From NCBI GenBank assembly GCA_028713125.1, contig JAQTOU010000004.1, positions 124,001 to 188,000 of the forward strand: 64,000 nt of DNA, given 5' to 3'. Every line of letters begins with the position of its first letter. The first letter of the stretch is position 1. Below, in pieces: positions 1 through 58,183 of the stretch. The notes beneath the pieces are model-generated. The model saw nothing but the letters and a program-made list of their open reading frames with translations. It did not search any database and was not told the DNA's origin. The position numbers and the translations under genes are program-made. This stretch comes from Elusimicrobiales bacterium (GTDB lineage: Bacteria; Elusimicrobiota; Elusimicrobia; Elusimicrobiales; UBA9959).

Positions 1-1726
1 CTTCCTGCTGGGCTCTTAAAAGCGCGGCCTGTTCCACGAGGTCGGCTTCCGCCTGCTTGCGCCTGGTGATGTCGCGGCAGAGGGCTACTATCTGGTAGGT
101 GTCCCCCATCTTTACCACTGTGGCGTTGATCTCTATCGGTATGGCTTGCCCGCGCCTGTCCATATAGTCTACGGAGAGGTTCCTCGCGTGGCCGACCTTA
201 ATGCATTTTTCTATCTCGCGCCTGTTGCGTGCCTTGTCGTAAGGGGCGGTCCATTCGGTTACCCGCCGGCCTAGTATATCTCGCATCCGCTTGCGGCCGG
301 TAAGCCGCAGGTATTCTTTATTTGCGTCCACCACCTGGCCCTGCGAGTTAAGTATCAGGTAGCCGGTGTCCGTGCTTTCTACCAGGGCGCGGTATTTTTC
401 CTCGGTCTTAAGGCGCTCGGAGATGTCGTAGAATATTCCCTGCAGGACCTCCCTGCCTTTAAGAGTGAGTTTAGAGGCGCTTATCAGCACCTGTACTTTA
501 GACCCGTCTTTGCGGATGATCTCCGAATGCCCCAGCCTCGAGGAGCCATCCCTTACCCTATCGCGGAATTCCTGTTTGTAAAGCTCGGCGGCTTCGGGCG
601 GGTGCAGCCTGCTCTGGTGCATGCCTATGATCTCTTTTCGGGACCTGCCGAGCAGCTTCTCCGCGTCTTTATTCGCGTCCACTATCAGCCCGGTGGCCGT
701 ATCCGCAAGGATGATCGCGGTATTGGCCATTTGAAAGATCTTTTTGTATTTAAGCTCGCTTTCCGCCAGGTTGTTCGCCGTTTCGGCCTGCTGCTGCTCC
801 GCCAGCTTGTGGCGCAGCATCAGCGCGTAGACCCGCGCAAGTTTTTTCAAGGCGTCTATAGCCGCGGGCGTGTAGTCCGCGGGCGGGTTGACGAGGGCGA
901 GCATGCCTATAAGCTCTTTCCCGGAAATAGCGGGGGCTCCCGCGAACCGGGAGATCTTGATATTGCTGGAGATGGTTCCCGCGGCGCGCGGGTCCGTAGC
1001 GGCGGAATTCGTGACCAGGGGTTTTTTATGCTTAAGGACCCAGCCCCAGAGGCCGGTGAATTCTTTGAGCACCAGTTCCTTCCTGTGCCGCTGCGAACTT
1101 TTCATGGCCTCCCGCGTAAAGGCGGGAATGACCAGGTGGCCGGTGGCGGAACTGATATAGCCGGCGAAGCCGAAACGGCTGCCGGTGAGGCGCCGCGCTT
1201 CGTCCAGTACGATCCTGGAGATCTCCTCGAGGGAGATGGCGGGGAAAGCCAGGTAAAGCTCCTCGAGATGGGTGACCGCGTCGGCGACGTCGCGCTCGCG
1301 GGTAAGCTGGCCTTCCCTGCTTTCCTGGGCCAGGCGGCCGCTTATCGTTCTCGCCGCGATCTGGACCAGCTGCCCGGCGAAAGCGCCGGCGGCCCGGGCG
1401 TGGGGGCGCGCGAGCAGGAAGCCGGCCGTCGCGCCGCCCTGCACGGGGGAGCTCAGGATCCCGCTCATCTGTTCCGGGGAGCCCCTGCGCGCCAGTTCTT
1501 TTTTTGTGAAATTCAGGGAGACCGTCAAAGGCGCGGCGTTCTCGCCTTTGTCCAGCATTACGGACAGGCCGGCGGCGGGCCCGAGCGCGTCAGGCCGAGA
1601 AAGAGTCTTTATGACCCTGCGCAGGAAAGCGTCGAGGTTGTCCGGGGAGGCGGCGGCGAGCAGGAGTTCCCTCAGGAATTCCTCGCTGGCCCCCTGGACG
1701 GGCTTTCCGGCGGCTGGGTTTCGCAT
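1..1726 (-). CDS. GAF/PAS sensor protein, probable histidine kinase (3' end outside window)
   Basis: The frame is open from ATG at 1726 to the left edge, giving 575 visible codons. A poorly conserved N-terminal segment (about 1-150, possibly a divergent GAF) is followed by a GAF domain (about 160-290), then two PAS domains (about 320-440 and 445-560), each ending in a typical PAC stretch (FYDISERLKTEEKYRAL; CRDITRRKQAE). No transmembrane segment is visible, so the sensor is cytosolic. Its start codon overlaps the stop of the response regulator (TAATG), so the two are translationally coupled and probably form a two-component pair. The kinase core is expected beyond the edge and is not seen; a diguanylate cyclase or another output cannot be excluded. 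Confidence 0.8.
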   Translation of the reverse strand, partial: MRNPAAGKPVQGASEEFLRELLLAAASPDNLDAFLRRVIKTLSRPDALGPAAGLSVMLDKGENAAPLTVSLNFTKKELARRGSPEQMSGILSSPVQGGATAGFLLARPHARAAGAFAGQLVQIAARTISGRLAQESREGQLTRERDVADAVTHLEELYLAFPAISLEEISRIVLDEARRLTGSRFGFAGYISSATGHLVIPAFTREAMKSSQRHRKELVLKEFTGLWGWVLKHKKPLVTNSAATDPRAAGTISSNIKISRFAGAPAISGKELIGMLALVNPPADYTPAAIDALKKLARVYALMLRHKLAEQQQAETANNLAESELKYKKIFQMANTAIILADTATGLIVDANKDAEKLLGRSRKEIIGMHQSRLHPPEAAELYKQEFRDRVRDGSSRLGHSEIIRKDGSKVQVLISASKLTLKGREVLQGIFYDISERLKTEEKYRALVESTDTGYLILNSQGQVVDANKEYLRLTGRKRMRDILGRRVTEWTAPYDKARNRREIEKCIKVGHARNLSVDYMDRRGQAIPIEINATVVKMGDTYQIVALCRDITRRKQAEADLVEQAALLRAQQE

Positions 1727-2412
1727 TATTCGAATTTATAGCCGTGCCCGGGGACGGCTATGATCCGTTTAGAGAAGCTGCCGGTCTTTTTGCGCAGGTT
1801 GGAAATGTGCACTTCTACGGTGTGGGGATTGTTGTAGTCCGCGGTGTTATAGCCCCAGACGGATTCCAGGAGGCCGGTCAGGCTGAGCACGCGTCCCGGA
1901 TTGGAGACTAGGGCGGCGAGCAGGTCCAGTTCCTTGGAGGTAAGTTTCAATATTTTCCCGTTGAGTTTGGCCGTGCGGCCCTCGAGGTTCAATTCGAGGC
2001 CGGCTTTCTTGAGGAGGGGGGCGGGTTTGGCGCGGCTTTCGGCGCGCCGGATGAGGGTTTTAGCCTTCGCCATCAGGATGGGGTAGGAGATCGGCTTGGT
2101 GACGTAATCGTCCGCGCCGAAAGTGTAGCCGGAGACTATGTCAGCCTCGGAGACCTTCTTTCCGGACATTATTATCAGCGGGGTATTCCTGAGGGCCTTT
2201 GATTCTTTCACCCTGCGGCAGAGGGTGAACCCGTCCATGTGCGGCATATCCACGTCGGTTATGATAATATCGGGCTTCGCCGCGGCGGCGGCCGCCAGCG
2301 CCTTTACGCCGTCTGCCGCCAGGACCGCTTCGAAACCGTCTTTCTCAAGATAGCGTTTGAGAATGGAGAGGAGGTCGGCGTCATCGTCCACTATAAGGGC
2401 GCGCTCTTTCAT
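1726..2412 (-). CDS. OmpR-family response regulator
   Basis: 228 aa. The receiver domain (1-120) has the acidic pocket D9-D11, phosphoacceptor D53, S83 and K106. A winged-helix trans_reg_C domain (about 130-228) ends in the typical PGHGYKFE. It is a DNA-binding output paired with the PAS sensor it is coupled to. No Shine-Dalgarno is visible; TATAAT on the minus strand (2419-2424) lies 6 nt before ATG, suggesting a leaderless transcript in addition to read-through from the upstream RNA promoter. OmpR/PhoB regulators bind direct repeats of about 11-bp period, and two such arrays lie just upstream, so the regulator may control the tandem RNAs and itself. That link is inferred. Confidence 0.93.
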   Translation of the reverse strand: MKERALIVDDDADLLSILKRYLEKDGFEAVLAADGVKALAAAAAAKPDIIITDVDMPHMDGFTLCRRVKESKALRNTPLIIMSGKKVSEADIVSGYTFGADDYVTKPISYPILMAKAKTLIRRAESRAKPAPLLKKAGLELNLEGRTAKLNGKILKLTSKELDLLAALVSNPGRVLSLTGLLESVWGYNTADYNNPHTVEVHISNLRKKTGSFSKRIIAVPGHGYKFE

Positions 2413-2438
2413 AATAGGATTATAATATTTATGGAGGC

Positions 2439-2642
2439 AAAAAAGCGCCCCGCCGGAGTTTTCGTGAGGAGTTACATAGGCCTGACTAAGGAGTCTTACT
2501 TGTTGTCGCCCGGCGGGGCTTTAATTGAGCCAGTGCTGCAGATGCATAGAGCACGGAGCCCGAAGGCCCCGAGTCTTGGGGGTTTGGGTTAGGGGGCGCA
2601 CCGTACAGCACTGGGGATCTGTTTTTAAAGAACGGGTACTAT
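2439..2642 (-). ncRNA. Structured RNA, copy 1 of a tandem pair
   Basis: A roughly 200-nt RNA is predicted on the minus strand from a -10 box at 2649-2654. Two long-range helices are visible: CCAGTGCTG (2530-2538) with CAGCACTGG (2606-2614), and GCCCCGCCGG (2447-2456) with CCGGCGGGGC (2510-2519). The second helix is followed on the minus strand by a run of six U (2439-2444), as in an intrinsic terminator. Between the arms of the first helix is a C-rich region with a CCCC/GGGG hairpin. A second copy lies directly upstream, and a U-A to C-G swap in the first helix between copies supports the fold. It resembles no RNA family I recognise. It could also act as the leader of the response-regulator gene. 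Confidence 0.65.
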
Positions 2643-2648
2643 ACTGAA

Positions 2649-2703
2649 AGTATAACAAAGGTCGTTCAAGAATCGTTCAAGTCCGGCTCAAGACTTTTTC
2701 AAG
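2649..2703 (-). promoter_or_regulatory. Four direct repeats (11-bp period) plus -10 box: OmpR/PhoB-type promoter for RNA copy 1
   Basis: On the plus strand TTCAAG, TTCAAG, CTCAAG and TTCAAG begin at 2665, 2676, 2687 and 2698, an exact 11-bp period (7-bp unit with 4-bp spacer, as in pho boxes). On the minus strand the last unit lies 10 bp upstream of TATACT (2649-2654), the geometry of PhoB-activated promoters, in which the box replaces a -35 element. The same arrangement recurs at copy 2. The binding protein is inferred to be an OmpR-family regulator. Confidence 0.65.
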
Positions 2704-2709
2704 AGTTAA

Positions 2710-2907
2710 AATGAACCCCGCCGGCTGGGCCGGGAGACTTACGAAAGCCTGATCAAAGAGTCTTACTGTTGCCCGGCGGGGCTGAAATTGAGCCAGCGCT
2801 GCAGATGCATAGAGCACGGGACCCGAAGGCCCCGAGTCTTGGGGGTTAGGTTAGGGGGGCGCACCGTACAGCGCTGGGGATCTGTTTTTTAAAGAGCTTC
2901 TTGCTAC
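2710..2907 (-). ncRNA. Structured RNA, copy 2 of a tandem pair
   Basis: This is the second copy of the RNA at 2439-2642, with high identity in the central region. Its helices are CCAGCGCTG (2793-2801) with CAGCGCTGG (2869-2877), and CCCCGCCGG (2716-2724) with CCGGCGGGG (2773-2781). The 3' stem is followed by a weaker U-rich stretch, which runs into the repeat array of copy 1. The central C-rich loop region (runs of five or six C around 2846-2858 on the minus strand) is conserved between the copies, whereas the segment inside the 3' helix has diverged. The layout resembles duplicated regulatory RNAs such as OmrA/OmrB, each with its own promoter. Confidence 0.6.
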
Positions 2908-2913
2908 AAGTAA

Positions 2914-2968
2914 AGTATAGCGAAACGCGTTCAGGAAGCGCTCAAACCCGGCTCAAAAGGCGCTCAAG
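2914..2968 (-). promoter_or_regulatory. Four direct repeats (11-bp period) plus -10 box: promoter for RNA copy 2
   Basis: On the plus strand TTCAGG, CTCAAA, CTCAAA and CTCAAG begin at 2930, 2941, 2952 and 2963, again an exact 11-bp period. On the minus strand the last unit is 10 bp from TATACT (2914-2919). Spacing is identical to the copy 1 promoter although the sequence between has diverged, which argues that both are functional. Confidence 0.65.
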
Positions 2969-3108: not shown

Positions 3109-5184
3109 ATGGCTTCAATACAATTTCTAAAAGGCGTGGGCCCCAAGAAAGCCGAGCTGTTCGGGCGGCTCGGCCTGGAGACGCTCGACGACCTGCTCTT
3201 CTATTTCCCCTCAAAATGGGAAGACCGGCGGCTCCCTGAGAAGCGCGAGCCGCTGCCTTTCCTGGAGGCGACGCCGCTGATAAGGGGCAGGATAAAGAGG
3301 ATCAGGGACCTCTACACCTCCGGCAGCCTGCGCATCTTCAAAACTTTCGTGGAAACTCCCTATGGCGAGGCGGAGGCCAGCTTCTTCAAGCGGCATAACC
3401 CGCGCTTCGACGTCTTCGCCCTGCTGCGCAAGGACCTGCGGGAGGGCCGCACGGTATGGATCACCGGGACCCCGGAAGACCCGCTTTTCCTCACCCGCCT
3501 GCGCGCCGACGAGTACTATGCGGACGATGACGAGCGCGCTCTTAAGATGCACATAGGCCGCATAGTTCCCGTTTACCCCCTGACCGAAGGCCTGACGGCC
3601 AAATTCGTGCGCGAGGCTGTTTACGAGGCCGTTATGGCCGGGGCGGAAGCCGTGGGCGACTTCCTGCCGGCCGACCTCGCGGCGAGGCGCGGGCTCTCCA
3701 CGCGGGCCATGGCCGCGCGGGCCATCCATTTTCCGGAGAATAATTTCGAGCTGGTCCAGGCGCGCCGCAGGTTCATCTACGAGGAGCTGCTGCTGATGGC
3801 GCTGGCCTGGGCGATAAAAAAGCGGCAGACCCGCAGCGTCCAAAAGGGCTTTTCCTACGAGATAAAGAAAAACCTGCTTACGCCTTTCCGCGAGAACCTG
3901 GGTTTTCACCTCACGGCGGACCAGGCACACGCTATAAACGAGATCTTCGCCGATATGCAGGCCCCCACGCCCATGGGCCGGCTGCTGGAAGGGGACGTGG
4001 GCTCCGGCAAGACCGTGGTGGCGCTCTCGGCCATGCTCCTGGCGGCCGAGAACGGAGGGCAGAGCGTGTTCGCCGCCCCCACCGAGATCCTGGCCGAGCA
4101 GCATTTCCTCACTTTCGGCAAATTCCTTAAGGGCCTGGGCGTCAGGTTCGCGCTTCTGACCGGCCGCTTGAAAGCGGCGGAAAAGAAAAAGCTGCTTTCG
4201 GACCTCGCCGAGGGGAAAATAGATATTTTGATAGGCACCCACGCGGTTATCAGCGAAGGAGTGAAGTTCAAGAACCTGCGGCTGGCGGTGGTGGACGAGC
4301 AGCACCGCTTCGGTGTGCGGCAGCGCGCGGCTTTGCGGTCCAAGGGCGATAAGGCTGACATGCTGATCATGACCGCCACGCCTATACCGCGGACGCTTTT
4401 CCTCGCCCTCTACGGCGACCTGGACCTGTCGGTGATAAAAGAAATGCCCCCGGGCCGCAAACCGGTCAAGACTACCGAGGCCACGGAAGATATCGCTTTC
4501 CTGGCCGCCGCTGACGAGGTGGCAAAAGGGCGCCAGGTTTATATCGTCTACCCGGTCATAGAGGAAACGCAGGCGGCCGATATGAAGTCGGTAAAAGCGG
4601 AATTCGAGCGGCTGAGCGTTTATTTCAAAGGCCGCCGGGTGGCGATGCTGCACGGGCGCATGCTTTCTGAAGATAAAAAGAAGGTCATGGAAGATTTCGC
4701 GGCCGGGCGCACCGACGTGCTTGTGGCTACGCAGGTGATAGAGGTGGGGATAGACGTGGCTAATGCCACGCTGATGGTGATAAATAACGCCGAGCGCTTC
4801 GGCCTGGCGAGCCTGCACCAGCTTCGGGGGCGGGTGGGGCGCGGGAAGTGGGATTCGCGCTGCATGCTTGTGGCCCACGCGCGGGCCGGGGATTCGGCGG
4901 ACCGGCTGCGGGCGATGGTGCAGACTTCCAACGGTTTCGAGCTTAGCGAAAAGGATATATATATAAGGGGGGCGGGGGAGATCCTGGGAATGCGGCAGCA
5001 CGGGGATATGGATTTCAAGCTTGCGGACATGTCCCGCGACGGGGCTATCCTCGCGCAGGCGATAGAGGACCGCGAAATGATCCTGGCGAAAGACCCGGAC
5101 CTGGTGAAAAAAGAGAACTCCGGCCTGCGGCGCAAGCTGCAGGACCTCTACGCCGCACGCTGGAATTTGATAGATCTTTCCTGA
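3109..5184 (+). CDS. recG: ATP-dependent DNA helicase RecG
   Basis: 691 aa, the usual RecG length. RecG is a branch-migrating helicase that remodels stalled forks and Holliday junctions. The N-terminal wedge opens with the typical FLKGVGPKKAELFGRLGL. Walker A is GDVGSGKT (295-302), motif II is DEQH (396-399), and the QLRGRVGRG motif VI and the TRG C-terminal region follow. The start at 3109 gives the conserved N-terminus, though no strong Shine-Dalgarno is seen. The next gene begins 4 bp after the stop, so the two are probably co-transcribed. Confidence 0.97.
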   Translation: MASIQFLKGVGPKKAELFGRLGLETLDDLLFYFPSKWEDRRLPEKREPLPFLEATPLIRGRIKRIRDLYTSGSLRIFKTFVETPYGEAEASFFKRHNPRFDVFALLRKDLREGRTVWITGTPEDPLFLTRLRADEYYADDDERALKMHIGRIVPVYPLTEGLTAKFVREAVYEAVMAGAEAVGDFLPADLAARRGLSTRAMAARAIHFPENNFELVQARRRFIYEELLLMALAWAIKKRQTRSVQKGFSYEIKKNLLTPFRENLGFHLTADQAHAINEIFADMQAPTPMGRLLEGDVGSGKTVVALSAMLLAAENGGQSVFAAPTEILAEQHFLTFGKFLKGLGVRFALLTGRLKAAEKKKLLSDLAEGKIDILIGTHAVISEGVKFKNLRLAVVDEQHRFGVRQRAALRSKGDKADMLIMTATPIPRTLFLALYGDLDLSVIKEMPPGRKPVKTTEATEDIAFLAAADEVAKGRQVYIVYPVIEETQAADMKSVKAEFERLSVYFKGRRVAMLHGRMLSEDKKKVMEDFAAGRTDVLVATQVIEVGIDVANATLMVINNAERFGLASLHQLRGRVGRGKWDSRCMLVAHARAGDSADRLRAMVQTSNGFELSEKDIYIRGAGEILGMRQHGDMDFKLADMSRDGAILAQAIEDREMILAKDPDLVKKENSGLRRKLQDLYAARWNLIDLS

Positions 5185-57144: not shown

Positions 57145-57248
57145 GTAGCACCCTTGTAATCCTCCGAAACAGGCGGGGGAGACTCCACCGGCTGGCCTTA
57201 ACCAGCTGTAACCAGGGGAAACGAAGATCTTTTCGTTTCTCTTTTTTT
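57145..57248 (+). ncRNA. Leader RNA with intrinsic terminator (candidate riboswitch or attenuator)
   Basis: A leader of about 100 nt has a CCTCC/GGGGG helix (57161-57165 with 57175-57179), a hairpin GCTGG-CCTTAA-CCAGC (57191-57206) and then a full intrinsic terminator: GAAACGAA (57218-57225)/TTCGTTTC (57232-57239) and a T-run. The terminator is 30 nt before the start of the secreted protein gene. An aptamer-like part before a terminator is the layout of a transcriptional riboswitch. It matches no class I can recall. A stand-alone small RNA is the alternative. Confidence 0.5.
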
Positions 57249-57277: not shown

Positions 57278-58183
57278 ATGAAAAAAAACCTGATATACAC
57301 TTTCCTTCTTCTGGCCTGCGCGGTCCTCTCGGCTTCCGCCGACGGGGAACAGATGAAGCTCGACACTCTCCTCACCGGCCACAGGGGTTTCTGGGACCCG
57401 GCCTTCCAGGACTGCATAGAAACCTCGGACGGCTACCTGAATTCGAGCAATACCATGAACTTGTATTCCGAGCCCAAGGATACCAGGGGCTTCCGCGACT
57501 CCGTGATCTCGGCGCCGCCCCCCGCGCTCAGGATCCCGGCCGCTGTTAAAACCCCCGCCGCGGCCGCCAGGGCGCTGCCCGAGGAAAGGGCCGGCCTGCC
57601 GGCGCTGCCGTCCGGTCATTATAAAGTCACTTTCGCCGGGGAAAACGGCCCCGTCGGGTCGTACGTGAGGCCGCTGGATTCGGGCTCCCGGAAATACGCC
57701 AGGGAGTATGTGCTGCTCGGCGTCGCCGTAGGCGAGGGCTCCTATGACAAGCTTCTGCCCAAGCTCGAGGCCGCGGGCCTGAGATTCGCCGGGGAAAAGA
57801 TCTCCTACGGTAAAAAAGACAAAAAAACCGTCATCCTGGGCTGGGCGCCTTACGCGAATATGGCCGGGATAGCCAAGATCGCCGGCGTGACCGGCGTGGC
57901 CGTGGAAAAAAAGAGCACGGGCATGCCGCTCAAGGCGAAGGTGCGCTTTACCCTGAAGGTCCCCTACCAGAACAAGCCTAACGTCTTCGTGCCGGAGTTC
58001 ATAAAGGGCCTGACCGAAAAAAGCGGCTTTGATCCCGGTAACTGGTTCCGCCTGCCGCAGAAAAACGCCGAATCCAAGTTCAGCGTTTTTAACGTCACCG
58101 GCACTCTTCCCGTCGACATGATAGGGGAGCTTTCCCGCTCTCCTTTCGTCGCCTCCGTGGAATTCAACGACGCTTCTCTGTAA
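57278..58183 (+). CDS. Secreted protein of unknown function
   Basis: 301 aa with a signal peptide ending near SASA (about 21). After a Pro/Ala-rich linker (about 75-108), residues 109-301 seem to hold two similar alpha/beta units (YVLLGVAVGEGSYDKLLPKLEAAG and FIKGLTEKSGFD, then ISRSP-like ends VTGVAVEKK and PFVASVEFND) reminiscent of small inhibitor or BON-like folds. I do not recognise a family. No Shine-Dalgarno is strong (CATAGGAAT). Expression is probably governed by the leader terminator upstream. A terminator follows. Confidence 0.75.
   Translation: MKKNLIYTFLLLACAVLSASADGEQMKLDTLLTGHRGFWDPAFQDCIETSDGYLNSSNTMNLYSEPKDTRGFRDSVISAPPPALRIPAAVKTPAAAARALPEERAGLPALPSGHYKVTFAGENGPVGSYVRPLDSGSRKYAREYVLLGVAVGEGSYDKLLPKLEAAGLRFAGEKISYGKKDKKTVILGWAPYANMAGIAKIAGVTGVAVEKKSTGMPLKAKVRFTLKVPYQNKPNVFVPEFIKGLTEKSGFDPGNWFRLPQKNAESKFSVFNVTGTLPVDMIGELSRSPFVASVEFNDASL

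Follow-up and report, generated by a model that had tools for sequence, protein, structure and literature searches.

Small RNAs under response regulators and the tandem pair in the window

OmrA and OmrB of enterobacteria constitute a tandem sRNA pair under OmpR, an arrangement that resembles the RNAs described here; they are, however, Hfq-dependent, while no Hfq was found in the genome studied, and their sequence is unrelated. In Listeria, the multicopy sRNAs LhrC1-5 all depend on the response regulator of the LisRK system, and under LisR each LhrC copy offers three redundant pyrimidine- or CU-rich motifs for target recognition (PMC4132741). Likewise, csRNA1-5 of Streptococcus form a family of similar sRNAs with the strongest promoters of the CiaRH two-component regulon, and the redundant RsmY/RsmZ and CsrB/C RNAs are reported to be nearly the sole direct output of the response regulator GacA/UvrY (PMC7602753). 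The 6C RNA (B11 sRNA) of Actinobacteria, including the Hfq-less mycobacteria, targets mRNAs by Hfq-independent C-tract pairing through C-rich loops (PMC12395582). As to transcript leaders, the published gamma-proteobacterial boxA consensus, GYTCTTTAANA, is found near the 5' end of rRNA transcripts and also in the suhB leader; the consensus search behind it left out non-coding RNAs (PMC5725501).

In the window (the whole stretch of 64,000 nucleotides of Elusimicrobiales DNA that was analysed), two RNA gene copies lie head-to-tail on the minus strand at 2436-2968, between recG and the gene of an OmpR/PhoB-type response regulator (Table 1). In each copy, four TTGA-type repeats with 11-bp spacing come first, followed by TATACT and a short leader; the core then extends over ~180 nt, and a U-run terminator closes the gene. 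A sequence-only reading had proposed two copies of a structured RNA with common helices, each under OmpR/PhoB-type 11-bp repeats and beside the probable regulator. Both cores were recovered and the coordinates given proved correct; the proposal is borne out by the conservation and covariation of the block, the specificity of its promoters and its linkage to the regulator gene (see below). The same reading had the RNAs perhaps repress many mRNAs by pairing with GGAG Shine-Dalgarno sites, a role that the nearly invariant C-tract loop could serve. As judged from sequence comparison, with strong support from the relatives, the pair represents a real RNA family that had not been described before.

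Set against the systems above, the RNAs differ from LhrC in sequence and structure, and LhrC was not matched by cmscan; the csRNAs are unrelated in sequence and smaller (87-151 nt). The C-rich loops are shared with 6C/B11, where they are conserved in its high-GC group, but covariance models detect no similarity. RsmY/RsmZ and CsrB/C bind CsrA/RsmA, while CsrA was not found here. In contrast to its rRNA-type counterparts, the boxA belongs to an sRNA that is short, is apparently controlled by a regulator and ends in an intrinsic terminator of its own. To our knowledge, no boxA occurs in LhrC and no two-component linkage exists for 6C/B11. The locus combines a putatively two-component-controlled tandem sRNA with an rRNA-type boxA.

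Table 1. Positions in the window of the two RNA genes, their sequence elements and the flanking genes
Feature	Position	Strand	Basis or remark
Copy 1 promoter, four 11-bp repeats TTGAGCGCCTT TTGAGCCGGGT TTGAGCGCTTC CTGAACG...	2931..2967	-	sequence; register conserved in relatives
Copy 1 -10 box TATACT	2914..2919	-	10 bp past last repeat
Copy 1 boxA GCTCTTTAAAA	2887..2897	-	perfect GYTCTTTAANA match
Copy 1 RNA core, domain 1 (C-tract hairpin) and domain 2 (terminator hairpin)	2707..2882	-	covariance model R1, 176 bits
Copy 1 C-tract internal loop CGCCCCCCUAACCUAACCCCCAAGAC	2836..2861	-	near-invariant alignment columns
Copy 1 terminator hairpin	2707..2782	-	loop: GUAAGAC, AUCAGGC, GUAAGUC
Copy 2 promoter, four 11-bp repeats TTGAAAAAGTC TTGAGCCGGAC TTGAACGATTC TTGAACG...	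2666..2702	-	sequence; promoter pattern search
Copy 2 -10 box TATACT	2649..2654	-	sequence; 10 bp past last repeat
Copy 2 boxA GTTCTTTAAAA	2623..2633	-	perfect GYTCTTTAANA match
Copy 2 RNA core, domains 1 and 2	2439..2619	-	covariance model R1, 200 bits
Copy 2 C-tract internal loop CGCCCCCUAACCCAAACCCCCAAGAC	2573..2598	-	near-invariant columns
Copy 2 terminator hairpin and U run	2439..2519	-	loop: GUAAGAC, GUCAGGC, GUAACUC
OmpR/PhoB-type response regulator (Response_reg and Trans_reg_C)	1726..2412	-	
Start of sensor gene, directly after regulator, runs off window	1..1726	-	full gene L216:3501-7727
recG, divergent, on far side of RNAs	3109..5184	+	

Promoter repeats and the neighbouring two-component genes

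The exact 11-bp period of the four repeats in each copy, 10 bp from TATACT, was confirmed in the sequence and its register is kept in relatives. Read on the plus strand, the repeats appear as TCAG at 2931 and TCAA at 2942, 2953 and 2964 in copy 1, and as TCAA at 2666, 2677, 2688 and 2699 in copy 2. A -35 box is absent at the canonical spacing, the 11-bp repeats overlapping the missing -35 region. Among 53 copies from the genus, the position of the -10 box is near-invariant, and three or four TTGA elements stand in 11-bp register in 44 (all four in 28), whereas control spacings of 8-14 bp never brought more than two into register. The same holds for loci of other genera, with three or four in register at all 15 examined. 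Searching the 3.48-Mb own genome for three repeats plus a -10 box with at most two mismatches returned only these two promoters (three matches, one of which overlaps the copy 2 site in a shifted register and was counted with it), and the reversed pattern used as control gave zero matches. A third site in this genome (L062, three mismatches), which falls within a cluster of coding genes in antisense orientation, was taken as chance. In 20 congeners, a two-repeat pattern identified the promoters of these RNAs only, bar one site in G011 (L053:1708-1753) and G002 (L054:1494-1428). There it precedes a small lipoprotein-like gene, which is possibly a second regulon member.

From the sequence context, the regulator encoded next to the pair likely controls and activates both RNA promoters, presumably by binding to the four 11-bp repeats. 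Such an activity would give a dedicated output to a regulator whose function had no assignment. Its gene is linked to the RNAs almost everywhere examined. The RNA lies 5' of the regulator in g1, g3, g15 and g16 and directly 3' of the regulator-sensor operon in g12 and g14; in L042, L044, L048 and L118 other genes separate the two. As the linkage survives relocation, it indicates that RNA and regulator are functionally connected in trans and speaks against a leader. A cis-acting leader or attenuator of the regulator gene, with the terminator of copy 2 controlling readthrough, would agree with the distance of less than 30 nt between this terminator and the regulator start in the window, and with similar distances in many congeners. 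Still, it was rejected as a general role on account of the intervening genes and the relocation, and the regulator has a promoter-like sequence of its own past the terminator; we regard this explanation as very improbable. Right after the terminator of copy 2, a TATAAT is located a few bases 5' of the regulator ATG (window 2412-2440, minus strand), and from its sequence the regulator start is possibly near-leaderless. The sensor gene encodes 1408 aa with GAF, six or more PAS and HisKA domains; HATPase_c was not found in this protein, nor was an ATPase ORF found directly after its gene.

Conserved structure, loops and boxA

Three helices are supported by the alignment, i.e. the long stem of domain 1, the apical hairpin within it and the terminator stem. 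Pairing is kept in 97.6% of alignment cells, and both partners have changed in 16 of 38 pairs, compared to 7.1 in shuffles (0 of 500 reached 16); sliding the partners gave 2-9 doubly changed pairs versus the 16 in register. The compensatory change claimed from the two copies is real: at alignment columns 10/88, copy 1 has C-G where copy 2 has U-A. A small peptide was rejected, as single-base indels between copies speak against a reading frame. It may also be asked whether the element acts at the level of DNA, by a structure of the G-rich strand or as a recombination site near recG: the complementary strand is rich in G-tracts, and recG is the neighbouring gene here as in most members of the family. 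The covarying stems, however, share the polarity of one transcript with the promoter, the boxA and the U-run terminator, and a DNA-level role appears scarcely credible.

The loop of ~26 nt between the stem and the apical hairpin (CGCCCCCCUAACCCAAACCCCCAAGAC) is almost invariant across the genus and contains no G inside, whereas its closing stem varies. The central 21-mer of the copy 2 loop occurs once in the own genome. In other genera the spacing of the C-tracts differs; at least three C-tracts, separated by A/U and free of G inside, are retained. The C-tract loop is taken as the universal part of the RNA because it is kept in other genera and because minimal hairpins with the same loop recur elsewhere in some genomes. 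Conservation of an unpaired C-rich loop is the feature expected of a 6C- or LhrC-like C-tract antisense sRNA. With respect to the C-rich loop region of the sequence-only reading (CCCCC, CUCC in copy 1), the C-rich loop is indeed present, but the CUCC of copy 1 belongs to the terminator loop and lacks conservation in this form. Stand-alone C-tract hairpins, lacking TTGA repeats and boxA, were located at L117:1888-1975, L120:2021-1930, L133:1124-1193, L134:1616-1540 and L201:1539-1444. Those at L117 and L120 lie directly 5' of related secreted-protein genes, and that at L201 lies 5' of another response regulator.

The terminator loop carries a repeated motif. GU(A/C)AGNC occurs 82 times in 46 terminator loops, versus 1.5 in shuffles, with a spacing of 11-13 nt; the array is expanded in L028. 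In many copies 2, the pyrimidine-rich spacers of this loop, e.g. ACUCCUUA, resemble an anti-Shine-Dalgarno sequence, albeit neither the spacers nor the CUCC stretches of the loop are strictly kept. The GU(A/C)AGNC motif, the near-invariant G-less C-tract loop and the boxA had been overlooked in the sequence-only reading. A repeated motif of this kind is also what a protein sponge would display, comparable to CsrB or to RsmY/RsmZ under GacA, with the C-tracts and/or GU(A/C)AGNC titrating an RNA-binding protein other than CsrA. The near-invariance of the C-tract loop above a variable closing stem is consistent with this explanation, as is a recognisable regulon consisting almost only of these RNAs, which is reported similarly for GacA with RsmY/RsmZ (reference listed in PMC7602753). 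On the other hand, each loop offers only two or three repeats, and neither CsrA nor a candidate partner protein was found. A sponge is considered unlikely, albeit the strongest of the alternatives.

Upstream of the core, GYTCTYT is present in all 53 genus copies that have a leader (seven with one extra T) and at 13 of 15 loci of other genera. The neighbouring leader positions are variable, and none of the shuffled leaders reproduces the strict boxA form. The own assembly lacks 16S, and the comparison with rRNA leaders therefore relies on congeners: those of G005 and G025 carry GCTCTCTAAAA, and GCTCTCTGAAAA or GTTCTTTGAAAA stands in those from elsewhere in the order, in each case ~210-300 nt 5' of 16S. 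By these comparisons, the boxA is a genuine and unusual addition to the sRNA. NusB and Rho are both encoded in the genome, and the boxA may shield the C-rich, untranslated transcript from Rho. If it works in this way, ribosomal antitermination would be used to make short regulatory RNAs that are otherwise cut off by Rho.

The same elements could conversely form a decoy, in which boxA (the NusB-S10 site) and the rut-like, C-rich, G-less loop of an abundant RNA titrate Nus factors or Rho and thereby adjust rRNA synthesis or Rho termination. The fit of boxA to the gamma-proteobacterial consensus as well as to rRNA leaders within the genus, the absence of G inside the C-rich loop and the presence of Rho and NusB genes are all in line with this proposal. 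Were it true, a two-component signal would be coupled to rRNA synthesis or global termination in a new way. Homologues in G034 and G140, however, keep the C-tract hairpin without boxA, which shows that boxA is not the core of the element. Moreover, Rho normally requires an unstructured site longer than one 26-nt loop. Overall, titration of Nus factors or Rho appears improbable.

Candidate mode of action and phylogenetic range

The family, its structure, promoter, boxA, terminator and linkage to the regulator are apparent from the comparative data; how the RNAs act is a matter of analogy. We favour trans-acting RNAs under two-component control, the C-tracts of which would pair, independently of Hfq, with mRNA stretches that are G-rich or hold a Shine-Dalgarno sequence, and assign this reading a probability of about 50%. 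It is preferred because the anatomy is LhrC-, csRNA- and 6C-like and because neither Hfq nor CsrA was found in the genome. An Hfq-type sRNA of the OmrA/B kind and a CsrA sponge of the CsrB/RsmZ type were rejected, the genome being without detectable Hfq and CsrA. In the proposed sequence of events, the phosphorylated neighbouring regulator would bind the four 11-bp repeats and activate the -35-less promoter, upon which RNA polymerase would synthesise an RNA of ~200 nt with the ribosomal-type boxA in its leader. NusB-S10 loaded at boxA could protect the untranslated, C-rich and Rho-prone transcript until the intrinsic terminator is reached. The RNA would then display the near-invariant G-less C-tract loop together with a terminator loop in which pyrimidine-rich spacers accompany about three GU(A/C)AGNC-like motifs, and Hfq-free pairing of both loops with such mRNA stretches would allow the two-component system to repress or tune a set of mRNAs.

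Pairing energies of the loops with 306 gene starts (444 kb of the genome) showed a marginal excess, 1-3 of 30 composition-matched shuffles being as good. Besides this narrow margin, further observations count against C-tract antisense pairing as formulated here. The near-invariance extends over the whole 26-nt loop, further than a short seed would call for, and fits binding by a protein; the CUCC stretches of the terminator loop are not strictly kept; and the adjoining sensor has no recognisable ATPase domain for phosphorylation.

A DNA search of 61 relatives located the RNA block in a single further genus besides that of the window, where 30 of 32 genomes carry it (counting the own genome). 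Covariance model R1, built from 44 cores, matched 49 of 341 Elusimicrobiota genomes; all belong to one family with nine genera, and none was found outside this family among the 341 genomes of the phylum. The helices and the 11-bp repeats are conserved in the relatives examined for them. Cmscan against Rfam 15 gave zero matches to the RNA block at gathering level, and permissive settings produced unrelated matches only (E 3.5 or worse), which rules out known families such as 6C, LhrC, 6S and CsrB as far as they are held in Rfam 15. The C-loop pattern also matched DNA from beyond Elusimicrobiota, among others from Omnitrophota, Bacteroidales and Leptolyngbya; these matches were discarded in the absence of a significant model match, although the one in Omnitrophota (E 0.12) may be genuine. 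As far as the literature search showed, this would be the first regulatory small-RNA family for Elusimicrobiota, and its covariance model is now available for searching other genomes.

Many genomes carry two copies and several a single complete one, and the terminator domain is missing from some copies 1. Without it, copy 1 would read on into copy 2 in L022 (2391-2165), L037 (3001-2817) and L038 (2597-2411). At L130:2290-2000 (minus strand) the domain order is swapped, with a GUAAGAC-loop hairpin first and the C-tract hairpin as terminator. In four genomes, one copy (copy 1 or 2) contains a structured insert of ~145 bp between domains 1 and 2 (L034:2255-2400, L026, L035, L036). The insert recurs at 76% identity in the genome of the window (G000:C35:117326-117459) and is apparently a dispersed repeat inserting into the RNA gene. 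Elsewhere in the window, a 2'-deoxyguanosine-II riboswitch (RF03165, 68.7 bits) occupies 57149-57220 on the plus strand; 57 nt downstream begins an ORF without Pfam match (57278-58183), which encodes 301 aa with a signal-like N-terminus.
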